Part shown: piece by piece, positions 8,954 through 57,043 of the stretch
Layout: each line of letters starts with the position of its first letter
How positions within the stretch are numbered: the first letter of the stretch is position 1
Assembly (NCBI GenBank): GCA_902384795.1
Contig: CABMDC010000018.1
Coordinates: forward strand, 44,602-108,601
Direction of reading: 5' to 3'
DNA from: Candidatus Gugararchaeum adminiculabundum
GTDB lineage: Archaea > Micrarchaeota > Micrarchaeia > Burarchaeales > Gugararchaeaceae
Length of the DNA stretch: 64,000 bases
Notes under the pieces: generated by a model
Seen by the model: the letters and a program-made list of their open reading frames with translations, nothing else
The model's database searches: none
Told to the model about the DNA's origin: nothing
Translations under genes and position numbers: made by a program

Positions 8954-10519
8954 ATGAACAAAGTCGCTGTTTCGGAATATAACGAACTGGTGAACAAAGG
9001 CCTTAAGCTGCCAAAGAGGGTCAGGATTTTAGACACCACTTTGCGCGATGGCGAGCAGACGCCAGGCGTTTCCTTCAAGAAGGAGGAGAAAATCGAAATA
9101 GCCGAGGCAGTGGACGGATTGGGCGTTGATTTCATTGAAGCAGGGTTTCCGATTAATTCCCAGCCTGAATTCGATGTTGTTAAAGAGATTGCCGGAATGG
9201 GATTAAAGGCGAAGGTTGTCGCGCTTGCACGTGTTTTGGACCAGGATTTGGATTCGGCCATGAAAACAGAGTGCGGCATGGTGCACACGTTTGTTTCAAC
9301 CAGTGATATTCATTTGCAGTATCAGATGAACAAGACGAGAAGCGAAGTGAAAGCGCTCGCAGTTTCAGCCGTGCGAAAAGTGAAGCAGGCTGGCTTCATT
9401 TGCTTGTTTTCAGCAATGGATGCCACCAGGACTCCGATGAATTACTTGAGTGAAGTGCTGAAGGCAGTTGAAGCTGAAGGGGTTGACTACATCAATGTTC
9501 CGGATACCGTGGGAGTTATGCATCCGTCTGCCATGAGGCATTTTATTACCGAAGTCAAGAAACAGGTCAAGACTCCGATTGATGTGCACAATCACAATGA
9601 CTATGGATTGGCTGTGGCGAATTCGCTTGCCGCGGTTGAAGCCGGCGCTGATGGAGTGCAGGTAACGGTGAATGGAATGGGTGAAAGGTCGGGCAATGCG
9701 AGCGTTGAGCAGGTGGTAATGGCATTGCACACGCTCTATGGAATCAAGACGAATGTGAAAACTGAAAAATTGACCGCTGTTTCAAAATTGGTTGCCAAGT
9801 ATTCTGAAGCACCATTGGCTCCGTTCTTCCCCATTGTCGGGGATAACGCGTTTGCCCATGAGAGCGGGATTCATGCCCATGCTGTAATGAGGAGCTCGGA
9901 TACTTTTGAGCCGTTCCCTGCCGAGATGGTCGGCCAAAAGAGCAGAATTGTAATTGGAAAACATTCGGGCAAAGCGGCCATTGAAGCGACACTCAAAACA
10001 TTGGGATACGAAAAAGTGGACCAGAAATTGCTAGTGGACATTACAAACAAAATCAAGGAATTGGCTGAATCCAAGAAAAGAGTTTATGACGAGGATGTCG
10101 TGGCAGTGGCTGAGGATATTTTGGGCTATGCGAAAAAGGAGAAGCCCTTGATTATTGTTGATGAAGTGTCGGTGATGACTGGAAATAAGATTACTCCAAC
10201 AGCTAGTGTTGTATTGCGCTATGGAAATGATATTTTGAAAGGTGCTGCCCAGGGAGTCGGGCCAGTGGATGCGGCGAGCAATGCGATTAGGCAGATTGTA
10301 GGGAATGAGGCGAAAATTGTCTTGAAGGAGTATAATTTGAGGGCGATTACCGGCGGAACTGACGCTTTAGCAGATGTCACGATAAAAATTGAAAATGAAA
10401 AAGGAAGGCAATTCGTAGCGAACGCAGTGAAAGAGGATATTGTGATGGCGAGCGTGGAAGCTTTGATTAGGGCCGTGAATGATGCGGTGAGAGAGAAGCA
10501 TAAACAGGAGAAGAAATAG
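8954..10519 (+). CDS. leuA: 2-isopropylmalate synthase
   Basis: It condenses acetyl-CoA with 2-oxoisovalerate, the first committed step of leucine synthesis. The DRE-TIM motif DTTLRDGEQTPG is at about residues 27-38, the metal-binding HNHNDYG near 212, and GDNAFAHESGIH with GKHSG near 290-340. The last 120 residues are the LeuA allosteric/dimerisation domain (VGPVDAASNAIR, YNLRAITGGTDA), where leucine would inhibit. The full length of 521 residues fits the family. A second LeuA-like enzyme at 47545-48999 has CimA features, so this copy is the better candidate for the leucine branch. A small membrane-protein gene follows immediately. Confidence 0.88.
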   Translation: MNKVAVSEYNELVNKGLKLPKRVRILDTTLRDGEQTPGVSFKKEEKIEIAEAVDGLGVDFIEAGFPINSQPEFDVVKEIAGMGLKAKVVALARVLDQDLDSAMKTECGMVHTFVSTSDIHLQYQMNKTRSEVKALAVSAVRKVKQAGFICLFSAMDATRTPMNYLSEVLKAVEAEGVDYINVPDTVGVMHPSAMRHFITEVKKQVKTPIDVHNHNDYGLAVANSLAAVEAGADGVQVTVNGMGERSGNASVEQVVMALHTLYGIKTNVKTEKLTAVSKLVAKYSEAPLAPFFPIVGDNAFAHESGIHAHAVMRSSDTFEPFPAEMVGQKSRIVIGKHSGKAAIEATLKTLGYEKVDQKLLVDITNKIKELAESKKRVYDEDVVAVAEDILGYAKKEKPLIIVDEVSVMTGNKITPTASVVLRYGNDILKGAAQGVGPVDAASNAIRQIVGNEAKIVLKEYNLRAITGGTDALADVTIKIENEKGRQFVANAVKEDIVMASVEALIRAVNDAVREKHKQEKK

Positions 10520-35260: not shown

Positions 35261-36343
35261 ATGGCTTCAACCATCGAGAGGAGAAAGGAGGAGCACGTGA
35301 AACTTGTGAGCGAGAGCGATGTGGAATACGAAAATGTGAAGCCGGGGTTTGCTGACGTTGAAATTTTGCCTTTGGCCAATAGAAAGAGGCTGGATGTAAG
35401 CAAGATTAATATTGAAACCAAGCTGCTCGGGAAAAAACTAAGGGCCCCGATTGAAATCGAGGCAATGACCGGGGGCTATGATGAAGGAGGAAGGATTAAC
35501 GAGGAGCTGGCGCAGGTGGCTGAGAAGTTCGGCTTTGCGTTCTGCCTTGGCTCGCAAAGGGCGATGATTGAGCAGCCAGAGCTGGCTGAAACTTATATGG
35601 TGCGGAGAGTGGCGCCAAAAACGCTGGTGTTCGGGAATATCGGCTATGCGAACCTGAAGGAGTATGATGTGAAAATCCTGAACGAGGCGCTGAAAAAAAT
35701 AGGGGCGGATGCGCTGTATATTCACCTGAATCCCCAGCAGGAGGAGTTCCAGCCCGAAGGGAACAGGGTAAAATTGGAAAAAGCGTTTGCAGAGATAAAA
35801 CGGGTTGCCAGGGGACTGAAATATCCGGTGGCTGTGAAAGAAACAGGCGCTGGAATTGAATTGGAAGTGGCGAAAAAACTAGTCGCTTCTGGAGTGAAAA
35901 TAATTAATGTCGCAGGGGCCGGAGGCACCAGCTGGGGAAGGGTTGAGATTGTCAGGGGAAATGGAAGGGGAGATTATGAGAAAGGAGTGTTCCCGACGGT
36001 GGATTGCATTGTTTCCTGCGCGCAGCTGCGGAAAAAAGGGGTGAAACTGATTGCCAGCGGAGGGGTCAGAAACGGGCGGGATGTTGCCAAGGCCATTGCG
36101 CTTGGGGCCGACCTGGCAGGGCTGGCAAAGCCATTTTTGCATGCTTACAATGAGAATAAGCTGGAACTGTTTTGCAGGGGGATAGTAGGAGGATTGAGGG
36201 AGGAAATGGCGCGCGTGGGCGCGAAGAATTTGAATGATTTGCAAAAGTGCAAAGTAAGGATTTCGGGTGCTACTGCGAAAAGGCTGAACAAGAAAAAGAA
36301 TGGAGTTAGAATGAAATTGGACGAACGGGTTGAGCTTGTATGA
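35261..36343 (+). CDS. fni: Isopentenyl-diphosphate delta-isomerase type 2
   Basis: This FMN-dependent enzyme interconverts IPP and DMAPP for archaeal lipid and other isoprenoid synthesis. RKEEHVKL near the N terminus, PIEIEAMTGGYDEGG (about 65), LGSQRAM, HLNPQQEEFQPEGN, VKETGAGIELEVA and GAGGTSW are family motifs, and IASGGVRNGRDVAKAIALGADL holds the phosphate site. The length is 360. The stop overlaps the gltX start by four bases, so the two are translated from one transcript. Confidence 0.95.
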   Translation: MASTIERRKEEHVKLVSESDVEYENVKPGFADVEILPLANRKRLDVSKINIETKLLGKKLRAPIEIEAMTGGYDEGGRINEELAQVAEKFGFAFCLGSQRAMIEQPELAETYMVRRVAPKTLVFGNIGYANLKEYDVKILNEALKKIGADALYIHLNPQQEEFQPEGNRVKLEKAFAEIKRVARGLKYPVAVKETGAGIELEVAKKLVASGVKIINVAGAGGTSWGRVEIVRGNGRGDYEKGVFPTVDCIVSCAQLRKKGVKLIASGGVRNGRDVAKAIALGADLAGLAKPFLHAYNENKLELFCRGIVGGLREEMARVGAKNLNDLQKCKVRISGATAKRLNKKKNGVRMKLDERVELV

Positions 36344-38049
36344 GTGAATTGAATGAAATTGTCAGAAAACATGTGGTGAAGAACGCGCTTGATTACGGGA
36401 AGGCGAATGCTGGCGCTGTTGTGGGAAGAGTAATCGGAGAACTTCCTGAAGCTAAAAATGACATGAAAGAAACAATGAAAATTATCAGCAAGGCGGTTGC
36501 TGAAGTGAACAAGCTTTCGCGCGTGGAGCTGGAAGGGGAAGCTGCGAACTATACTTATGCTGAAAAGAAAGTTGAGGAGAAAAAAATAGTTTTGCCAAAC
36601 GCCGAGAGGGGGAAGGTTGTTACAAGATTTCCTCCGGAGCCGTCGGGTTATCCGCACATAGGGCATGCGAAAGCCGCGCTGCTGGATTATGAGGCGGCTA
36701 AAGAGTATGATGGAAAATTCCTGATTAGGTTTGATGACACGAATCCTGAAAAGGAAAAAGCCGAGTATGTTGAAGCGATTCTGAATGGATTGAAATGGTT
36801 GGGAGTGAAATGGGACGGGGAAGTGGAATACACCAGCGATTTCATGCCGCAAATCTATTCCTATGCTAGAAAATTAATTGCCAAGGGGAAAGCGTATGTG
36901 TGCTTCTGCGCTGCGGACAAGGTTAAAACTAATCGCCAGGAAGGGATTGGCTGCGAATGCAGGGACAGGAGCGCTGAGGAAAATTTAAATGAATGGAAAA
37001 AAATGCTGGCCGGTGAATTTTCTGAGGGAAAAGCGATTGTAAGGTACAGGGGAGATATGAGCGCTGAGAATACGGTGATGCGCGATCCGACAATGCTGAG
37101 AATCATAAAGGCAAAGCATTACCGACAGGGAACCAAATATAGCGTATGGCCTAGCTATGACTTCTCGGTTCCGATTGTTGATTCGATCACCGGGATCACC
37201 CATGCCATGAGGACCAAGGAGTACGAACTGCGTGATTATCTTTACTATGAATTGATTAGGGAACTGGAACTGAGGCCGGTTATTATTGTGGAATTCTCGC
37301 GCCTGCAACTGAAGGGGTTCCCTGTTTCAAAGAGGCTGATTACTCCGCTCGTGGAAAAAGGGAAAGTGCATGGCTGGGATGACCCGAGGTTGCCAACGCT
37401 CATGGGGCTGAAAAGAAGGGGAATTTTGCCCGAGGCCGCGCGGAAATTCGCGCTTTCATCCGGGATCGGAAAAAGCGAGAGCACTGCTGAAATCGAGCAG
37501 CTGCTGGTGGAGAACAAGAGGCTGGTGGAGCCCACTGCCCAGCGGAGATATTTTGTGAAGAATCCGGTGAAGCTGACTATAAAAAACAAGCCTGGCAGGA
37601 GCGAAGTGATGATCAGGAACCATCCTACAAATAAAGAACTCGGGGAGAGGAAAGTGAAAATCAGCGATGTGTTTTACATCAGCGGGGATGACGCCAGGGA
37701 GCTGGAAAGGGGGAGCGAGTTCAGGCTCAAGGAGCTATATAATGTGAAGATAGTGGACGAGCTTACGCCTGAATTTTTCGGTGAGTACGAGGGAGAAAAG
37801 ATTGTGCCTGGGAAGAAATTGCACTGGGTGAGCGACAAGGGAAAGGTGAAATGCAGGGTTATTGTGCCCGGCGAGCTGTTTGATGGCGACACTTTCCGAG
37901 AGGAAAGCCTGAAAATCGATTCCGGCTATTGCGAGGAGTCCTGTGAAAAGCTGAAAATTGGCGACGTAATCCAGTTCGAGAGGTATGGTTTCTGCCGTTT
38001 TGATGCCAAGGAAGGAGATACACTAGTTTTCATTTATACCAACCCCTAG
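36340..38049 (+). CDS. gltX: Glutamyl-tRNA synthetase (archaeal type)
   Basis: Class I synthetase charging tRNA-Glu, and in archaea without GlnRS usually also tRNA-Gln. The archaeal N-terminal extension (about 85 residues) precedes the catalytic core. The HIGH motif is EPSGYPHIGHAKAA (about residue 105), and the KMSKS equivalent is LKGFPVSKRLI (about 325). The C-terminal domain is the beta-barrel type shared with GlnRS and eukaryotic GluRS. ATG 36340 overlaps the fni stop. The length of 569 is normal. Confidence 0.95.
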   Translation: MSELNEIVRKHVVKNALDYGKANAGAVVGRVIGELPEAKNDMKETMKIISKAVAEVNKLSRVELEGEAANYTYAEKKVEEKKIVLPNAERGKVVTRFPPEPSGYPHIGHAKAALLDYEAAKEYDGKFLIRFDDTNPEKEKAEYVEAILNGLKWLGVKWDGEVEYTSDFMPQIYSYARKLIAKGKAYVCFCAADKVKTNRQEGIGCECRDRSAEENLNEWKKMLAGEFSEGKAIVRYRGDMSAENTVMRDPTMLRIIKAKHYRQGTKYSVWPSYDFSVPIVDSITGITHAMRTKEYELRDYLYYELIRELELRPVIIVEFSRLQLKGFPVSKRLITPLVEKGKVHGWDDPRLPTLMGLKRRGILPEAARKFALSSGIGKSESTAEIEQLLVENKRLVEPTAQRRYFVKNPVKLTIKNKPGRSEVMIRNHPTNKELGERKVKISDVFYISGDDARELERGSEFRLKELYNVKIVDELTPEFFGEYEGEKIVPGKKLHWVSDKGKVKCRVIVPGELFDGDTFREESLKIDSGYCEESCEKLKIGDVIQFERYGFCRFDAKEGDTLVFIYTNP

Positions 38050-38144
38050 TCTCTCGTAGAAGCGCGAGATATACTGCCATGGAATAACAAATCCTTTTTA
38101 AATACCTAATTTATAGAACTGCTCCGCGACCAGAAGTGAGACGT

Positions 38145-40463
38145 ATGACACCACAGGATGGATCTAGCAACGGTAATGCGAGAACGCAGGCAAGAGAAGC
38201 GACCGTAGTGGCGGGGGTTGACCCGAAAACGCAGATGCTTTTCGAGAGAATGTCTGAGCAGGCTGGGACGAAGAATCCGATTGCCATTCAAGCGGATATA
38301 AATGGTGGGATTACCATGCCAAGAAAGGAACCACATCACAGAACGGCTTTCATTGACGAGGCAGGCGGCGCCCAGATGGTGGAAATGCTGGACGAGCAGC
38401 CAGTAAAGCAGGAGGCAGCTAGGACCAGCCCGGGAGTGTTTAGCAGAATTGCCCAACTTTACAAGAGAATGGACGAGCCGCTTAAAACTCTGCTTGACGA
38501 GGCGGTTGCCCTGGGCAGGGAAGCGGCCGGGATTCCCGAAGAAACTATCATGATTTACTTGAGGGAGAGCAGCGCAGGAGCACAGGCTGCTGACCAGGCA
38601 GGCGATGGATTCTCGGTTGTTTCGCTGAAAAGCGGGGACGCGGAGATTGATAAGATCACGCCAGAGCTGATGGCAGAATTGAGGATAGCTGACAGTGATG
38701 CTTCGGGCAAGATTACCCAGCTGATTGTGAAAACTGACCCGAATGATGGGGGCAGGACGCTGACCCCGACTATCGAGGGGAGCCCGCCAGAAGTGCTTAC
38801 AAAAATGCTAAATGTTGAGTTTGCCAGGAGAGGCTTGGGAGGATTTGAATTGGCTGAAAGCTGCCATGTGAATAATGGAAAACACCACGGGGGCCTGGTG
38901 GTGCTGACCCGGAGCGGGACAAAATTGACCGCGGAAAAGGCGCAGATATTGCAGGGGCTTTCGGACATTATTGGCGAATTGATAGGTCTGAAAAACGAGC
39001 GCGAGGAAACTAAAGCAAAACTTGACGAGCAGAAAATAATGTTAGGGGATGCGGAGAGGATAATTGAATCGAAGAGGGAAATCCCACCAGATGTGCTTGA
39101 GAAAATGAATGGTGACCAGGCTGCTGCTTCGATTTATAGGCTGCTGCAGGCAACCGGGGAAATAATGAATGGGGAGATTGGGGCGCTTTCCACATTTTCA
39201 ACTGTCCAGAATAAAACGGATGTCCAGCTTATATCGGACATGGTAATAGGGGAGGATGGAAAACGGGCAAAGGATATCGCACCCGTGAGCATATACTCGC
39301 GCGGGGTTTTGCCAACGCTCACAAGAGTTGCCATGCAGGAAAATGAAGCGATTTGCATTTCGAGCGGCAAGAGCTCCGTAGTGTTTACGGTCGACATGGA
39401 AACTGGAGAGTTTGTTAGATTCGGAGCGGTTGATGGGGGAAACCCCTGGAAGAGTGGAGAGGGCGCGGCGCAGACAGAAACCGCTGCCATAAGTTACGCA
39501 ATAAAAAACAAGAAAGGGCAGGTGAGAGTGTTTTCATTCCCAATTTTCAAGGAAGTGCAGGTAACTGAAAAAACCTCGGTCAGGGCAGTTGGAAAAACAC
39601 AGAAGGAGAAGGAATTTTTGGAAGCAATGCAAATCCTGGTGGAGGAGGAAAGGGCGTTTGGCGCAAAGGATCTGAGAAGGATAAGGCTTGCCTGCGCACA
39701 GATGGCGGATGAGATAACCTTGCAGGTGCAGGCTGGAAAATCACTCAAGGACGGGCTTACTGGCGCATACAACCGCGTTTACTTCATGGAAGAGATGCTT
39801 AGGGAAGTCAGGAAGGCGAGAAGAAGCGATGGTGAATACCCGTTCGCTGTGCTGCTGGCTGATGTTGACAACTTCAAAAAAGTGAATGACACTTACGGGC
39901 ACGGAATGGGGGATGTGGTGTTGAAGACCGTGGCGGATATCATTAGAAGCGTGACAAGGAGCACGGATGTGCCATGCAGATATGGAGGAGAGGAGTTCAC
40001 TGTGCTGTTGGAGGGGAATACTGCCAGGGGAGTTGATGCTGAAATAGTGAAGAGCATTGCCGAGGAGATAAGAAGAGAGGTCGAGGCACACGTGTTCAAA
40101 ACTTCAAATGGAGAAAAATTCTCAGTCACTTTGAGCATTGGGGCTACGGTTACTGCCGTTGAAAGAGACGATGCAAGAGGCAGTGATGAGGAGATATTGG
40201 CGAGTGTGATTGAAATCGCTGACAATGCCGAGTGTGTTGCAAAAGGAAACGGCCGCGGTGTGGAAATCGCCAGCAAATACGGTGCTGTTGGATTTGATGA
40301 CGGGCAGCCAGCGAAGAACAGGACTTTCTTCTGCAACTGCGCAACTGGTAGAATGGAAAAAGTGACGCTTACCAAGGTGAGAGGTTTTGTAAAAAGCCAA
40401 CACAAAGAAGAGGAGAAGAGTGTGGGTCGCAAGAGAGCCACAGCTGTAAAAAATAGAGCGTAG
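38145..40463 (+). CDS. GGDEF-domain protein, predicted diguanylate cyclase
   Basis: About 772 residues, soluble. Residues about 170-295 and 410-530 look like two divergent GAF-type sensor domains separated by a coiled coil (NEREETKAKLDEQKIML). Residues about 535-700 form a complete GGDEF domain: DGLTGAYNRVYF, then LLADVDNFKKVNDTYGHGMGD (metal and substrate residues), then RSTD followed by five residues and RYGGEEF, i.e. an intact active site GGEEF with the RxxD inhibitory site at the standard spacing. FSVTLSIGAT follows. It is predicted to make c-di-GMP from GTP. No EAL, HD-GYP or PilZ protein is in the window. TATA (TTTTTAAATACC) lies about 40 bases upstream. Confidence 0.9.
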   Translation: MTPQDGSSNGNARTQAREATVVAGVDPKTQMLFERMSEQAGTKNPIAIQADINGGITMPRKEPHHRTAFIDEAGGAQMVEMLDEQPVKQEAARTSPGVFSRIAQLYKRMDEPLKTLLDEAVALGREAAGIPEETIMIYLRESSAGAQAADQAGDGFSVVSLKSGDAEIDKITPELMAELRIADSDASGKITQLIVKTDPNDGGRTLTPTIEGSPPEVLTKMLNVEFARRGLGGFELAESCHVNNGKHHGGLVVLTRSGTKLTAEKAQILQGLSDIIGELIGLKNEREETKAKLDEQKIMLGDAERIIESKREIPPDVLEKMNGDQAAASIYRLLQATGEIMNGEIGALSTFSTVQNKTDVQLISDMVIGEDGKRAKDIAPVSIYSRGVLPTLTRVAMQENEAICISSGKSSVVFTVDMETGEFVRFGAVDGGNPWKSGEGAAQTETAAISYAIKNKKGQVRVFSFPIFKEVQVTEKTSVRAVGKTQKEKEFLEAMQILVEEERAFGAKDLRRIRLACAQMADEITLQVQAGKSLKDGLTGAYNRVYFMEEMLREVRKARRSDGEYPFAVLLADVDNFKKVNDTYGHGMGDVVLKTVADIIRSVTRSTDVPCRYGGEEFTVLLEGNTARGVDAEIVKSIAEEIRREVEAHVFKTSNGEKFSVTLSIGATVTAVERDDARGSDEEILASVIEIADNAECVAKGNGRGVEIASKYGAVGFDDGQPAKNRTFFCNCATGRMEKVTLTKVRGFVKSQHKEEEKSVGRKRATAVKNRA

Positions 40464-40492: not shown

Positions 40493-42334
40493 TTATTGTT
40501 TTGGATTTTGCTTCCAGTAGAGTGTGTTATAGCCGTTTTCAAACGCGCGTATGCTTGCCACAACTATGTCTGGGTTGGTGCCCTTGCCATAGACTTTGTT
40601 CTTGTGCTTGTCCTGCAGGGTCATGGAAACGTCAACCGTGGCTTCAGTGCCACCGGTGTTGATGTCCACATGGTAATCGGTCAGTGAGAAATCAAAATCA
40701 GTGAGAACCTTGCGGATTGCGTTTATTGCCGCGTCAACAGGGCCGTCTCCTGTGCTTTCCAAATCATATTTCTTGCCCTTGTAGCCGACCGTAACTTCGG
40801 CTTTGGGCTTTTCATGCGCGCTGTCGGTTATTGAATAGTCGAGAACCTTGAGAATGCGCTTCTCCTGTTTTATTCTGGAGAGCGCTGCTTCGATTATGAG
40901 CTTGAGGTCGCTCTTGGTAACGCGCTTTCCTTTCTTTGTGAATTCGCCGATTTCCAGGAGAACGTCCTTGATTTCATCCTCGCCCAATTTCACATTGAAG
41001 AGTTTCACTACTGTTTCGCGCAATTGCTTTAGCTCTGGGATTGTGGAGAAAATTAATTGGTCTTTTTCTTCCCTGCGAACAGGGGCGCGCAGATTGTAAA
41101 GTTGCTGGGTTATGAATTTGGAAACCTCTGCTTCAACCGGTTCCACTGCAGGAGGATAGGTGAGTCCGCTGAGCGCTGCGCGCGGGTCCTTGAGCCCATT
41201 GCCGGTTAGAATCGCCACCACCGTGCCCGTGAGCTTGCCCTTGAGTTTGTGGATCGCCGCTATGCTGGCTGCTGCGCTCGGCTCTGCGAAAATGGAATCG
41301 GATTTGCCTATGAGCTGCTGGGCTTCCAGCATGTCGCCGTCGGAAACCGAAAGCGCGAGGCCGTTGGATTCGCGCAGAGCTGTGAGCGCCTTGTCTCCGT
41401 CCAGCGGGTCGCCTGCTGCTATCGCAGTGGCGATGGTGTCCGGCTTTTCAATGGGAGTTATTTTTGCAGTCTTCAGGGGATTGTTGAAAGCCGTAACTAC
41501 TGGGGGGCAGCCGTCTGCCTGGACTCCAACTAAGTGCGGAAGCTTGCCTGAAACTATTCCCAAATCCCTGAATTCCTTGAAGCCTTTCCAAATACCTGCG
41601 AGATGCGTGCCGCAGCCGATGGGGACTATTACCCAGTCCGGGAATTTCCAGCCAAGCTGCTCTGCTATTTCGAATGCAGTGGATTTTTGTCCCTCTACGC
41701 GGAAAGCATAGTCGCCCGTAAGACGATAGTCGTATTTTTTGCTGATTACTTCGGTGATGCGCGAAGCATCGGAATAGGTGCCTTTTATTTGGAGAACGCG
41801 TGCGCCGTAGGAAAGTGTTTGTGCGAGCTTTCCGAGCGCGGTTCCTTCAGGGACGAATACGTAGCAGGGGAGGTTGACTTTTGAGGAATAGGCCGAAACG
41901 CTGGCAGCCATGTTGCCCGTGGAAGCGACTGTGATCACCTTGGCCGAGTTCTCCACTGCTTTTGTGAGCTCGACCATGGATCCCCGGTCCTTGAAAGCGC
42001 CGGTCGGGTTCATGCCTTCGTTTTTTATCTTTAGGTCAAAGCCGAATTCATCGGAAAGTGTTTTTGACGAGTAAAGGGGCGTGCCGCCTTCGTCCAGGCT
42101 GACGATTTTCTTGTAATTCAAAATTGGGTAGAATGCTAGGTATTTGAGAGCCGAAATTGGAGCCGAGCGCAGAGTTTGCTGGTTGAGGCGCTCGCTGACC
42201 TGTTCGTAATCGTAAACCACGTCGAGTGCGCCGCCGCACTTCAGGCAGCGGCAGTAGGTTTGGTCCTCGGTAAAACTAGCTTTGCAGTGAATGCACTTCA
42301 GTTCATAGAGTTTGTTGGCTGATAATGTAACCAC
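40493..42334 (-). CDS. thrC: Threonine synthase fused to a LeuA-type allosteric domain
   Basis: Residues 1-400 are a PLP fold-type II threonine synthase: N-terminal zinc ribbon (CIHCKASF, CRCLKCGG), the PLP lysine in GAFKDRGSMVELTKA (about residue 115), VASTGNMAASVSAYSS and the glycine-rich VPIGCGTHLAGIW. Residues about 410-505 are a helical linker. Residues about 510-605 match the LeuA dimerisation/allosteric domain: STGDGPVDAAINAIRKVL, VDINTGGTEATVDVS and PDIVVASIRAFENG align with the C termini of both LeuA-like proteins in this window. This predicts feedback control by an amino acid. Last gene of the ychF-aroDE-aroK-thrC operon, 7 bases after aroK. Confidence 0.9.
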   Translation of the reverse strand: MVTLSANKLYELKCIHCKASFTEDQTYCRCLKCGGALDVVYDYEQVSERLNQQTLRSAPISALKYLAFYPILNYKKIVSLDEGGTPLYSSKTLSDEFGFDLKIKNEGMNPTGAFKDRGSMVELTKAVENSAKVITVASTGNMAASVSAYSSKVNLPCYVFVPEGTALGKLAQTLSYGARVLQIKGTYSDASRITEVISKKYDYRLTGDYAFRVEGQKSTAFEIAEQLGWKFPDWVIVPIGCGTHLAGIWKGFKEFRDLGIVSGKLPHLVGVQADGCPPVVTAFNNPLKTAKITPIEKPDTIATAIAAGDPLDGDKALTALRESNGLALSVSDGDMLEAQQLIGKSDSIFAEPSAAASIAAIHKLKGKLTGTVVAILTGNGLKDPRAALSGLTYPPAVEPVEAEVSKFITQQLYNLRAPVRREEKDQLIFSTIPELKQLRETVVKLFNVKLGEDEIKDVLLEIGEFTKKGKRVTKSDLKLIIEAALSRIKQEKRILKVLDYSITDSAHEKPKAEVTVGYKGKKYDLESTGDGPVDAAINAIRKVLTDFDFSLTDYHVDINTGGTEATVDVSMTLQDKHKNKVYGKGTNPDIVVASIRAFENGYNTLYWKQNPKQ

Positions 42335-42874: not shown

Positions 42875-44371
42875 TTATTTCTTTGCGCTAAGTGATTTTT
42901 TCACTGCATCACGCATGATGTTTATGTTAGGAGTTTCTCCTGTAAACAACTTAAATGCCTCTGCCCCCTGCTGAACGAGCATTTCGGAACCATCAAGCGT
43001 TTTCCATCCTGCGGATTTGGCTTTCTTTAGGAATTGGGTTCCCTTGGGCGAGTAAACCAGGTCGAAAGCGATTGGAGCCCCGTTGCCCTTTGCCTTGGCT
43101 TTTGGAAATTTGGAAATTGGGGAAACATCGGATTTGAGGCCGAGCGAGGTTGCGTTGATTATTATTTTGAAATCTGAAAGAATTTTTGGATTGCGCAGGC
43201 TGCTGAAAGGAAGTGTTTTGCAGTTGAAATCGCGCGCGAGCGCTAGGGATTTGGATTCAGTCCTGTTTGTGAGGGTGATGTCTGCTTCCTGTTTCCATAA
43301 ACCGTAAACTGCTGCCCTGCCTGCGCCGCCTGCGCCGATTAACAGGACTTTTTTTGCCTTGAGAATCGGGTCTAGTTGCTTTAGGGAAAAGGAAACGCCC
43401 AGGGAATCGGTGTTGTGGCCAAAGGCGCGAGTGTTCTGAATTGTGACTGTGTTCACTGCGCCAATCCGGGAAGCATGTTTGTCTGTGAAATCCATGAACT
43501 GCATTACTGAAACCTTGTGCGGGATTGTCACATTGAAGCCGTTGATGCCAAGGGATTTGCACATGAATGTGAAATCCTTGAGAAGCTCAGGTGGGACGCG
43601 CTGTTTCATGTAAAATGATTTTAGGCCCAGGTGATTGATGGCCGCGTTCTGCATTTGCGGTGAAAGGCTGTGGTCGATTGGATCTCCGATTACCATGAGA
43701 ATGCCCGAGGCATCGGGCCGGTTTGCGAGCTGGGTGAACGCCTGGCGCAGTTCGACAGCCGGAATTTGGCCAGGGGCAGTTCCGCTTGCCTTGTCCAGTG
43801 AAGCGAATGTGAATTCCGCCCCGAAAGTGCAGGAAAGGATGCGGGAGATTGGGCCGAATTCGCCCATGCAGAATGAAACTATGGGAGAAGTGGAAAGCTT
43901 GACTAAATTGAGAGTGGAGAGGTTGTCAAAGAAGCGCTCGGCTGTGCCGATTATTTTGCAGACATCAGCGCCTTTGGCCGCCATTTGCTTCTGGAGCTTC
44001 TGAAGCTCCGGGACACTGGGGATGTTTTTTGGAAAGTGTTTGGAAAGGATTAGTTTGGCTCCGCTGGCTTTCACCTGTTTTGTGAAATCTTTGGAAAATT
44101 TGGCATCGAATTCCAGGTCGACGTAAGTGAAATTGTGGGAAGCGACTAACTGGGAGAAAAGTTTCTCGCGCTGGATTTCGGTTCCTTTGAAATTTCCTAA
44201 CTCCCATTTTGGCCGCAGGGTGGCGATGAGCTGTTTGCTTGTTTTTAGCTTCTTGAGCTGCGCTAGATCGCGCTTGGTGAAAAAGTCAAGCCTGAGCTCT
44301 ATAATGTCGGCTAGTGCCTCTGCTTTTTTCAGCTGTTTGAGAGAGGTTATGGGTACAGCGATTTTTGCCAT
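42875..44371 (-). CDS. aroDE: Bifunctional 3-dehydroquinate dehydratase / shikimate dehydrogenase
   Basis: It carries out two successive steps of aromatic amino-acid synthesis. Residues 1-215 are type I dehydroquinase: IIELRLDFF, LILSKHF (catalytic His), ADVCKIIGTAE (Schiff-base Lys) and FCMGEFGPISRI. Residues about 225-495 are shikimate dehydrogenase: VIGDPIDHSLSPQMQNAA, NVTIPHK, HNTDSLG and LIGAGGAGRAAVYGL. Such a fusion is best known in plants and some bacteria. The start is placed at the ATG before AKIAVP; an in-frame GTG three codons earlier is possible. It lies between ychF and aroK in an operon. Confidence 0.93.
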   Translation of the reverse strand: MAKIAVPITSLKQLKKAEALADIIELRLDFFTKRDLAQLKKLKTSKQLIATLRPKWELGNFKGTEIQREKLFSQLVASHNFTYVDLEFDAKFSKDFTKQVKASGAKLILSKHFPKNIPSVPELQKLQKQMAAKGADVCKIIGTAERFFDNLSTLNLVKLSTSPIVSFCMGEFGPISRILSCTFGAEFTFASLDKASGTAPGQIPAVELRQAFTQLANRPDASGILMVIGDPIDHSLSPQMQNAAINHLGLKSFYMKQRVPPELLKDFTFMCKSLGINGFNVTIPHKVSVMQFMDFTDKHASRIGAVNTVTIQNTRAFGHNTDSLGVSFSLKQLDPILKAKKVLLIGAGGAGRAAVYGLWKQEADITLTNRTESKSLALARDFNCKTLPFSSLRNPKILSDFKIIINATSLGLKSDVSPISKFPKAKAKGNGAPIAFDLVYSPKGTQFLKKAKSAGWKTLDGSEMLVQQGAEAFKLFTGETPNINIMRDAVKKSLSAKK

Positions 44372-44387
44372 ATGGTTCACTAGGTCG

Positions 44388-47544: not shown

Positions 47545-48999
47545 CTAAATAAGCAGGTTAATTCCTCGCAAAACCGCTTCCACACTAGCCATTACAATAT
47601 CGGTTTCAGCTGCGCTGGCGCTCACTTCCCGGTCGCCTTTCTTCATCTTCACCTTGACATGCACGAGCGCGTTGGCGCCCCCAGTAATCGCGTCCACCTT
47701 GTACTCGGTCAGCTTGACATTCGTGCCGCCCAGGGCCTTTTCAATGGCACTAATGGCAGCATCCACCGGCCCGTCGCCAATCCCAGCGACGACCTTAACC
47801 TCGCCATTAATCTTCAGTTTCACGCTCGCGGTCGGCGTCACCCTGTTCCCGGTGAACGCAGTGAACTCTTCCAGCTTCACCTTAGCCTCGTGCTGCTCGC
47901 CCAGAATATCATAAACAATCGCGTGCAAATCCGCGTCAGTCACTTCCTTTCCCTTATCCCCCAATTCTTTCACCTTCGCAATGGCGCGCTCCAGCTGCGT
48001 GTCGCTAAATCTAACCCCCATCTGTTCAACCTTTGCTTTCACACCCGCTCTCCCCGAATGCTTTCCAAACGAGAATCTCCTCTTTTGCCCAACCATCTCC
48101 GGGGTAATCGGCTCATAGGTGGACGCGTGCTTCAGCACCCCATCTACATGAATCCCGCTCTCATGCGCAAACGCGTTATCCCCGACCAGCGGTTTGTTCG
48201 CGTGCAAAGTCAGACCGGTAAGTGTTTCAACAACTTTGGACAATTCACTTAGTTTTTTCAACTCAACAGTTCTCACATCATAGAAATATTTCAGGTCAAG
48301 CGCCAATTCTTCAAGCGGGCAATTTCCCGCGCGCTCTCCCAACCCATTCACAGTTACATGCAACTCACTCGCCCCGCCCCTGAACGCAGCAAGCGAATTC
48401 GCGACCCCCAAACCCAAATCATTGTGCCCGTGGAAAGCAACAGGCACTTTTAATTTTTCCACCAACAATTTGTAAATTCCAAAAGTAATTTCCGGGTTCC
48501 AGACTCCGACCGTGTCGCAAACACAAACCCTGTCCGCTTTCGCAGCAATCCCTGCAGAAAAAATCTCCACCAGCGAATTGAACTCGGTCCTGCTCCCATC
48601 CTCGGCCAACACTTCCACTTTCAATCCATGCGCCTTTGCATATGTAACAAGTTCCCCAGTAAGCGCAACCACTTCTTGTTTAGTCTTCTTCAATTTCTTT
48701 TCAATGTGCAGATCACTTGTCGGCACCACCAGTGAAAGCGTATTAACATCCGTCCCAAGCGCGTCATCAATATCCTTTTTCATGGCGCGCGCAAACGAAG
48801 AAGTGTCAGCGCGCAGCCCCTCTTTCACAATCGCCTTCATCGCCTGTTTTTCCCCGACACTGGCGCACGCGCTTCCCAGCTCGATAATGTCCACGCCGAT
48901 CTCATCCAGCTTGCGCGCAATGGCCATTCTTTTTTCCAAAGTCAGCGAAACGCCCGGGGTCTGCTCCCCATCCCGAAGCGTAGTGTCCAAAATCAGCAT
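47545..48999 (-). CDS. cimA: Citramalate synthase-like LeuA family enzyme
   Basis: It is predicted to condense pyruvate and acetyl-CoA to (R)-citramalate for isoleucine synthesis. ILDTTLRDGEQTPGVSLT opens the protein, IIELGSACASVGEK and SLVVPTSDLHI follow, and metal-site FHGHNDLGLG and GDNAFAHESGIHVDG are intact. The IELGSA, VPTS and HESGIHVDG details resemble archaeal CimA more than the leuA at 8954. The C-terminal allosteric domain has IGDGPVDAAISAIEKAL and VDAITGGANALVHV. The length is 484. A 2-isopropylmalate role cannot be excluded. TATA (CCTTTTTAG) lies about 30 bases upstream. Confidence 0.8.
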   Translation of the reverse strand: MLILDTTLRDGEQTPGVSLTLEKRMAIARKLDEIGVDIIELGSACASVGEKQAMKAIVKEGLRADTSSFARAMKKDIDDALGTDVNTLSLVVPTSDLHIEKKLKKTKQEVVALTGELVTYAKAHGLKVEVLAEDGSRTEFNSLVEIFSAGIAAKADRVCVCDTVGVWNPEITFGIYKLLVEKLKVPVAFHGHNDLGLGVANSLAAFRGGASELHVTVNGLGERAGNCPLEELALDLKYFYDVRTVELKKLSELSKVVETLTGLTLHANKPLVGDNAFAHESGIHVDGVLKHASTYEPITPEMVGQKRRFSFGKHSGRAGVKAKVEQMGVRFSDTQLERAIAKVKELGDKGKEVTDADLHAIVYDILGEQHEAKVKLEEFTAFTGNRVTPTASVKLKINGEVKVVAGIGDGPVDAAISAIEKALGGTNVKLTEYKVDAITGGANALVHVKVKMKKGDREVSASAAETDIVMASVEAVLRGINLLI

Positions 49000-55981: not shown

Positions 55982-57043
55982 ATGGCACTAATAATCGGCT
56001 TAACTGGAACGCTGGGCGCTGGCAAAGGCACCACTGCCCAGTTCCTGATGGACAATTACGGCTTCGTTTACCACTCCTGCTCCGATGTCCTGCGCGAAGA
56101 ATTAGCCAAGCAAGGAAAGCAAGAAAACGTTGACACCCTTTCAGCGCTCGGCAATGAGATACGGGCGAAGTACGGAGCAAACGAGCTCGCAAAAAGACTT
56201 TTAAAAAAAATCAAAGAAAGCAAAGAAAAATTCTCAATAGTCGACAGCCTGCGCAGCGTTGGCGAAATCGAGGAAGTTAAAAAAGCAGGAGGAATAATTT
56301 TCGCATTGGACGCTCCAATTGAATTGCGCTATTCGCGCATCCAAAAGCGCAAAAGAAAAGGCGACGATGTTTCCTTTGAAAAATTCCAGGAACAGGAAGC
56401 AAAACAGCTCGCAGGAACAGGCCCGAAAATGAATCTCCGCGCCTGCATGGCCCTGGCGGACCACACTCTCACAAACGAAGGCAAGTTCGAAGACTTATAT
56501 TCCAAAATTTCAAAAATAGTCAATCGATTAGAGGTGAAAAAAATGGGAGACACTTTCAAGAGAAAAATAAGGCCAAGAATCGGCTGGGACGATTATTTTA
56601 TGAAAATCGCGTTGCTGGTTGCAGAGCGCTCCACCTGCCGGCGCCATCACGTGGGCGCAGTCGCAGTAAAGGAAAAGCGCATCCTCACAACGGGCTACAA
56701 TGGCGCGCCTGCCAATACCAAGGACTGCATAGAACTAGGCTGCCTGCGTGATGAGCTGAACATTCCCTCAGGCACTCGCCACGAGGCCTGCAGGGCAGTG
56801 CATGCCGAGCAGAACGTGATAATCCAAGCCGGCCTCCACGGAGTAAACGTTGAAGGCGCCACTGTCTACTGCACCCATTCGCCCTGCATCCTTTGCGCCA
56901 AAATTCTGGTGAACGCGCGCATCAAGAAGTTCGTCACCTGCGGTTCCTACCCAGATACTGCTGCACTCGAACTCCTAAAAGAAGCAGGAGTAGAATTCGA
57001 GAAAAGGGACAAGCCAGAGGCAGTAATCAACGTCCTTGAGTAG
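55982..57043 (+). CDS. Fusion of dephospho-CoA/nucleotide kinase-like domain with dCMP deaminase
   Basis: Residues 1-185 are a P-loop kinase-like domain (IIGLTGTLGAGKGTTAQFL, YHSCSDVLREEL, FALDAPIELRYSRIQKR). Residues 188-353 are a zinc-dependent deoxycytidylate deaminase: GWDDYFMKIALLVAERS, VHAEQNVIIQA (catalytic Glu) and HSPCILCAKILVNA (zinc cysteines). It is expected to convert dCMP to dUMP for dTTP synthesis. An internal ATG at 56543 follows GAGGTGA by 6 bases, exactly at the domain boundary, so a free deaminase may also be made. It is divergent from dcd. Confidence 0.87.
   Translation: MALIIGLTGTLGAGKGTTAQFLMDNYGFVYHSCSDVLREELAKQGKQENVDTLSALGNEIRAKYGANELAKRLLKKIKESKEKFSIVDSLRSVGEIEEVKKAGGIIFALDAPIELRYSRIQKRKRKGDDVSFEKFQEQEAKQLAGTGPKMNLRACMALADHTLTNEGKFEDLYSKISKIVNRLEVKKMGDTFKRKIRPRIGWDDYFMKIALLVAERSTCRRHHVGAVAVKEKRILTTGYNGAPANTKDCIELGCLRDELNIPSGTRHEACRAVHAEQNVIIQAGLHGVNVEGATVYCTHSPCILCAKILVNARIKKFVTCGSYPDTAALELLKEAGVEFEKRDKPEAVINVLE

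Follow-up and report, generated by a model that had tools for sequence, protein, structure and literature searches.

The window analysed here is a 64,000-nucleotide stretch of the archaeon Candidatus Gugararchaeum adminiculabundum (Micrarchaeota), covering positions 44602-108601 of a contig of 108601 bases in a genome of 1.47 Mb that is 93.18% complete and 2.1% contaminated. On its forward strand lies the gene for a GGDEF protein, the subject of this report, which can be read as 775 residues from a GTG (38136-40463) or as 772 residues from an ATG (38145-40463). The ATG at 38145, which is also the start of the database copy and of the original prediction, is better placed than the GTG at 38136, since a Shine-Dalgarno-like GAAGTGAG (38133-38140) stands just ahead of it and a TATA-like TTTAAATA (38097-38104) lies 41-48 bases upstream. 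The latter is likely to be an archaeal promoter of the gene; TTTAWATA occurs six times in the window, counting both strands, and within 100 bases upstream of 3 of 30 checked gene starts. Residues of the parts of the protein are numbered below in the 775-residue form, and those of the whole-protein search in the 772-residue form.

The GGDEF domain and the region that precedes it

The catalytic domain occupies residues 538-707 (39747-40256, forward strand, as are all parts of the gene), and its assignment is far above chance. Pfam PF00990 matches there as a single domain (E 2e-34, 119.1 bits against a cut-off of 23.8), NCBIfam TIGR00254 scores 133.1 bits against a cut-off of 37.4, and PleD entries are the best among 50 matching sequences in the PDB (E 4.8e-25), while the GGDEF part of a full-length structure model has a predicted local distance difference test (pLDDT) score of about 73-98. 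The active-site motif GGEEF (39984-39998) follows the RSTD of the RxxD inhibitory (I) site (39957-39968) after a spacer of exactly five residues, giving RSTD-VPCRY-GGEEF at 39957-39998. An RxxD five residues upstream of GGDEF is common but not universal in diguanylate cyclases. The stretch for metal and guanosine triphosphate (GTP), LLADVDNFKKVNDTYGHGMGD (39852-39914), is complete, and 20 columns are invariant across the protein and 55 aligned database homologues (D576, N584, D593, R615, G617, G618, E620 and K703 among them); the metal Asp, the GTP-binding Asn/Asp and GG[DE]EF are all present. Alignment with PleD in the PDB recovers both sites, through the stretches NDT[YF]GH..GD, R..D.PCRYGGEEF and SIG. 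The original prediction, made from the letters of the DNA, had described an RYGGEEF with RSTD five residues before GGEEF and a full metal/substrate stretch, and translation, coordinates and invariant columns agree with it throughout; its claim that the active and inhibitory sites are intact holds at the level of residues. At the selectivity position, which we take to be the equivalent of PleD D344 and where Ser presumably marks the Hypr synthases of cyclic GMP-AMP (cGAMP), the protein has Asp and not Ser. The domain is followed by a tail of 68 residues with a basic end (40257-40460), and hydropathy gave no membrane segment in the protein (top 19-residue mean 0.84).

The same prediction had placed two GAF-like sensor regions and a coiled coil ahead of the GGDEF domain. 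The coiled coil agrees with two long helices in the model, one at residues 266-313 (38931-39074; pLDDT about 54-81 by blocks of ten) and a predicted signalling helix running into the GGDEF domain at residues 510-537 (39663-39746). The first of these would link a putative sensor module of GAF/PAS size, alpha/beta in predicted secondary structure (residues 160-265, 38613-38930), to a second putative module modelled with low confidence (residues 320-509, 39093-39662). Taken together, the predicted secondary structure is suggestive of a pair of alpha/beta modules connected by long helices, with GAF/PAS-like size and order. The GAF assignment itself was not confirmed: outside the GGDEF domain Pfam has no match at E <= 1 anywhere in the protein, hhalign comparisons of the N-terminus with 17 Micrarchaeal proteins and with tandem-GAF proteins from the database gave nothing significant, and neither of two structure predictions lent it significant support. 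In the full-length model the N-terminal pLDDT is below 60 in most blocks (the exceptions are residues 31-50, 171-200, 241-300, at about 67-81, and 491-537), and the sensor segment folded alone has a mean of 36. The list of structural matches is uninformative on this region because it spans residues 487-722 almost exclusively. No N-terminal relative emerged from a whole-protein database search, which scored the 7995 candidates sharing most words at 0.55-1.75 times the length and whose 61 other matches all have their alignment confined to residue 470 of 772 and beyond. Residues 1-531 found only themselves in 301 genomes of the class, and a whole-protein scan of the genome contigs gave 16 pattern matches and no relative.

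An archaeal locus in a phylum rich in GGDEF genes

The gene is set among archaeal genes. Upstream on the same strand lies an archaeal glutamate-tRNA ligase, GltX (36340-38049; 530.7 bits against a cut-off of 401.75), whose best database match is a protein named Candidatus Micrarchaeota at 57% identity; downstream and convergent is a threonine synthase with a LeuA_dimer domain by Pfam and NCBIfam (40493-42334, reverse strand). Other genes of the window encode the PolD large subunit, a tRNA-splicing endonuclease, an RFC-large-subunit-like ATPase, ribosomal protein L10 with an archaeal/eukaryal insert and a wyosine enzyme. With a codon-usage distance of 0.124, the GGDEF gene falls in the native range, that of 27 other genes being 0.084-0.209. 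Bacterial contamination at the locus is very unlikely given archaeal genes on both sides in a 108.6-kb contig, native codon usage and a promoter of archaeal type. Only one order-mate (G002) has a close threonine synthase and, since its contig ends inside that gene, an empty site is not demonstrable there.

Profile search found a single GGDEF match in the genome and none in the 15 other genomes of the order. Across the phylum, 127 of 295 Micrarchaeota genomes have a match at E <= 0.001 and 109 of 295 over the curated cut-off; the statement that GGDEF domains are rare in archaea therefore fails for this phylum and stands inside the order. Seventy distinct sequences were examined, ours included: 63 (ours counted) came from 62 fetched loci in 27 genera, with 7 others. 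The fetched loci were the strongest matches of the phylum listing, so the sample leans to intact domains. The catalytic set, scored as metal Asp, N335-type Asn and [GAS]G[DE]E, was present in 66 of the 69 other sequences, RxxD in 55 and both in 53, and the selectivity position held Asp in 62, Asn in 7 and Ser in none. One of the 66, L152 from genome G166, probably stems from contamination. Among the weak matches are proteins of another kind, in which, by eye, a winged-helix-like start and a REC-like domain precede a degenerate GGDEF (three translations: L149, 3761-5107, reverse strand; L150, 3431-4780, forward; L151, 3584-4801, forward). These could be DNA-binding readers of something GGDEF-like. 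A role for them as receptors of cyclic di-GMP (c-di-GMP) is unsupported, the three lacking RxxD.

That Micrarchaeal GGDEF genes are truly archaeal is supported by their archaeal neighbours. Pus10 adjoins the GGDEF gene in four loci of one family (by Pfam for one of the four genes, by BLAST grouping for the remaining three), the PolD large subunit is among the neighbours in locus L096, and L116 has RLI, the ribosome biogenesis/translation initiation ATPase. Of the ten neighbours scanned in these last two loci, three went without a match at E 1e-20 and five more are less telling (Rad50-like, HMG-CoA reductase, pyrophosphatase, a major facilitator superfamily transporter and phosphoenolpyruvate synthase). 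Contigs of at least 30 kb carry 27 of the 62 loci.

The partners expected from bacteria are a different matter. The window had been said to hold no c-di-GMP receptor or phosphodiesterase, which is true of its 38 Pfam-scanned open reading frames (shorter and overlapping frames lie outside the scan), and the genome search then suggested for EAL, HD-GYP and PilZ domains found none: the genome, 93% complete, has no match to EAL (PF00563), HD_5 (PF13487) or PilZ (PF07238), nor to MshEN (PF05157). PilZ is absent from all 295 Micrarchaeota genomes (5 of 14 control genomes positive), and MshEN from the 40 GGDEF-bearing genomes, ours included (5 of 14 controls). The search for the c-di-GMP-I riboswitch (RF01051) was uninformative, with matches in 0 of 40 genomes and in none of the 14 control genomes. 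EAL exceeds its cut-off in one genome of the 295 (G166; 6 of 14 controls), in a GGDEF-EAL protein on a 6.4-kb contig whose GGDEF domain falls inside a branch of database rows (support 96/88 and 98/94) and which is a probable contaminant; a further EAL match, in G127 (E 5.6e-4), comes from a fragment and stays under the cut-off. HD_5, which is HD-GYP-type, exceeds the cut-off in 24 of 295 genomes and reaches E <= 0.001 in 29 (4 of 14 controls); two order-mates (G005 and G010) have such a protein over the cut-off and no GGDEF. Among 14 HD_5 loci the motif reads HHExxDGxGY in four, HHExLNGxGY in three (family f11) and HHExxSGxGY in two, and no such form occurs in five. Because part of the HD_5 loci carry an HD-GYP-type motif, a minority of Micrarchaeota genomes may possess a phosphodiesterase. 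As a separate observation, the three f11 proteins (L136, L137 and L138) are HD-GYP-like, read HHExLNGxGYY and come from genomes that also have a GGDEF, possibly as a make-and-break pair.

The origin of the gene was approached with a tree of the 70 Micrarchaeal GGDEF domains and 85 database rows chosen near our protein and taken as bacterial (few are named). Thirty-six Micrarchaeal sequences are set apart by a supported branch (97/90) that leaves every database row on its far side, and ours lies outside this clade, in an unresolved part of the tree that it shares with database rows and other Micrarchaeal ones. At least four changes between Micrarchaeal and database groups are required by supported branches, in a tree whose bootstrap had not settled and which has several long branches. 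The nearest other database proteins, 119 in the best 120 of 7366 matches, have GGDEF domains 33-48% identical to ours; names, where given among those 120, are bacterial or generic, and most are nameless. Acquisition was probably separate from that of the main Micrarchaeal clade. It would have been old and independent, or followed by strong divergence; recent transfer is disfavoured by the 33-48% identity and the lack of a detected N-terminal relative.

A predicted diguanylate cyclase and the alternatives to it

Synthesis of c-di-GMP is likely because the protein has the residues that bacterial enzymes of this kind carry at their active and feedback sites. Our preferred reading, which we consider probable though by no means assured, is that the gene encodes a sensor-controlled, product-inhibited c-di-GMP synthase, a predicted diguanylate cyclase, whose receptors would be of an unrecognised kind. 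Characterised diguanylate cyclases are active only as dimers and are inhibited by c-di-GMP at RxxD. By analogy, a cytoplasmic cue sensed by the N-terminal region would lead it to pair two GGDEF domains, with dimerisation through the predicted helices 266-313 and 510-537, two molecules of GTP would be joined into c-di-GMP, and the product would bind RSTD and so limit its own formation. In a genome with no recognised phosphodiesterase, it is perhaps chiefly this feedback that limits the signal level, and it would be weightier than usual if a phosphodiesterase is truly lacking. The gene would have arrived apart from the main Micrarchaeal clade, probably by horizontal transfer, and would now be read from an archaeal-type promoter, and the receptor would be of a kind that PilZ and MshEN profiles do not recognise.

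Several points weigh against such a synthase. The lack of any recognised phosphodiesterase or receptor, in a genome 93% complete, could mean that the signal is unused, and the 15 order-mates devoid of GGDEF are what one would see with a passenger gene. A GAF identity for the sensor failed its profile comparisons, and the neighbourhood leads described below stem from other Micrarchaeal families. In the available text of PMC8646023, c-di-GMP went undetected in Haloferax volcanii and Sulfolobus acidocaldarius, neither of which is a close relative. The literature searched held no published c-di-GMP measurement in any Micrarchaeon.

The observations on order-mates and partners could also describe a bacterial diguanylate cyclase acquired by one lineage, perhaps active and yet unwired to any archaeal circuit. 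Its position outside the 36-sequence clade, among mostly bacterial database rows and other Micrarchaeal rows, would fit this, as would the failure to find EAL, HD_5, PilZ or MshEN in the genome. A mere passenger is nevertheless unlikely: the 119 nearest listed GGDEF domains are distant, some 530 N-terminal residues have no detected relative, codon usage and promoter suit the host, and every catalytic and I-site residue has been kept. The protein might instead bind GTP or c-di-GMP through its GGDEF fold and I-site as a sensor, and not as a synthase. GGDEF proteins that act as receptors exist, and a lone GGDEF in a genome with no phosphodiesterase could be its own receptor through RSTD. Receptor-type GGDEFs, however, usually have decayed active sites, whereas the set here is complete, and the genome offers no second GGDEF as a source of c-di-GMP, which leaves a pure sensor improbable.

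A different product (e.g. 3',3'-cGAMP, as in Hypr GGDEF enzymes, whose existence is cited in the available part of PMC10086821) has a very small chance of being correct, in view of the Asp at the selectivity position here and the absence of Ser from the 69 other Micrarchaeal sequences. Contamination of the archaeal bin by bacterial DNA was raised for earlier archaeal cases in the accessible text of Galperin 2018 (PMC5847659), and the one EAL match in G166 does resemble it; for a gene of native codon usage inside a 108.6-kb contig, with archaeal genes on either side, it is scarcely credible. Beyond the predicted cyclase itself, a Micrarchaeota-wide c-di-GMP system can be imagined, with intact cyclases, largely no EAL, no PilZ found, unrecognised receptors, and type IV pilus maturation and potassium (K+) channels as outputs, in which our protein would be an independently acquired input with an orphan sensor. 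We regard this wider scheme as possible rather than probable.

Related proteins, target leads and minor observations

Our protein belongs to a known enzyme family, within which its orphan sensor and partnerless archaeal setting set it apart. PleD of Caulobacter and WspR are REC-GGDEF proteins; ours has no REC by Pfam, belongs to an archaeal host, carries about 530 N-terminal residues with no detected relative, and has no EAL, HD-GYP or PilZ partner that we could find. The PleD family NF007135 scores 127.7 bits against a cut-off of 474, through the GGDEF part only, and the REC-REC-GGDEF layout is absent. Database GAF-GAF-GGDEF sensors (P0200 and P0201 among them) have GGDEF domains 47-48% identical to ours and a similar length, and the model of our protein suggests a two-module, helix-linked layout, but the N-terminus of our protein has no significant match to theirs. 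A REC protein with an inactivated GGDEF was noted in Micrarchaeum acidiphilum in the available text of Galperin 2018 (PMC5847659), and shares with ours a GGDEF-derived domain and the phylum. The three degenerate Micrarchaeal proteins described above, which resemble it, read NGDDF, NSDQF or NSDEF, have no RxxD and carry their REC-like domain behind the winged-helix-like part; unlike them, our protein has an intact GGDEF and neither a REC-like nor a winged-helix part.

c-di-GMP is usually regarded as a bacterial signal. Archaeal GGDEFs as such are already known: Braun 2021 (PMC8646023) reports BLAST hits in archaea numbering over 300, with Asgard and DPANN lineages contributing many, and a 2023 groundwater study (PMC9938205) counted diguanylate cyclase genes in ultra-small prokaryotes, each according to the portion of text available. 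Whether archaeal GGDEFs are real or contamination is left undecided in the accessible parts of PMC5847659 and PMC10086821. Those of PMC9040811 and PMC7567580 contain nothing on archaeal GGDEFs, while marine ammonia-oxidising archaea are described in that of PMC11442133 as responding to c-di-GMP among signals from surrounding bacteria. A survey of Micrarchaeota for residues, phosphodiesterases and receptors does not appear in the text examined of Braun 2021, nor was a Micrarchaeota-wide GGDEF survey found in the literature searched (which excluded bioRxiv and most subscription papers). Nor did that literature contain the residue-level picture of the whole phylum, with its missing receptors. Here, an intact GGDEF stands in an unambiguous archaeal contig, and its residue set recurs across a phylum in which PilZ is found in 0 of 295 genomes. 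If these enzymes work, a class of c-di-GMP receptor awaits discovery, and gene neighbourhoods supply candidates.

Surface pili or ion channels offer the best leads to targets, drawn from other Micrarchaeota and not from our locus. In 8 of 62 loci the GGDEF gene has a prepilin peptidase gene at most 3 kb away, against 0.37 expected (four genera against 0.18), and in 6 of 62 an ion-channel gene at most 3 kb away, against 0.49 (three genera against 0.24). Both functions were chosen after recurrent neighbours had been viewed and genera that share a family do not count as independent (two families account for the four prepilin-peptidase genera, and two for the three ion-channel genera), so the excess is a lead only and not a clean test. 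The prepilin-peptidase match in genus g56 (four genomes) is 20.5-25 bits, below the Pfam cut-off, and was grouped by BLAST. Our genome has one prepilin peptidase and two ion-channel matches, all on other contigs. Two arrangements recur: an apparent operon of GGDEF, Pus10 and prepilin peptidase (L077, L081, L082 and L092; four genomes, three genera), and a GGDEF gene divergent from a K+ channel (Ion_trans_2 with TrkA_N) followed by a prepilin-peptidase-like gene (L086, L090, L095 and L097; four genomes, one genus).

Some features of the window lie outside these subjects. The fusion of threonine synthase to LeuA_dimer, an allosteric domain, has a close relative, 60% identical over residues 4-568, in order-mate G002, and LeuA_dimer occurs again at 8954-10519 and 47545-48999. 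A type I 3-dehydroquinase is fused to a shikimate dehydrogenase (42875-44380, reverse strand), adjoining a shikimate kinase, and a P-loop kinase-like domain to a cytidine/dCMP deaminase domain (55982-57043, forward strand). Near 48000 the guanine-cytosine (GC) skew turns from positive to negative, at a cumulative peak that could be a replication landmark.
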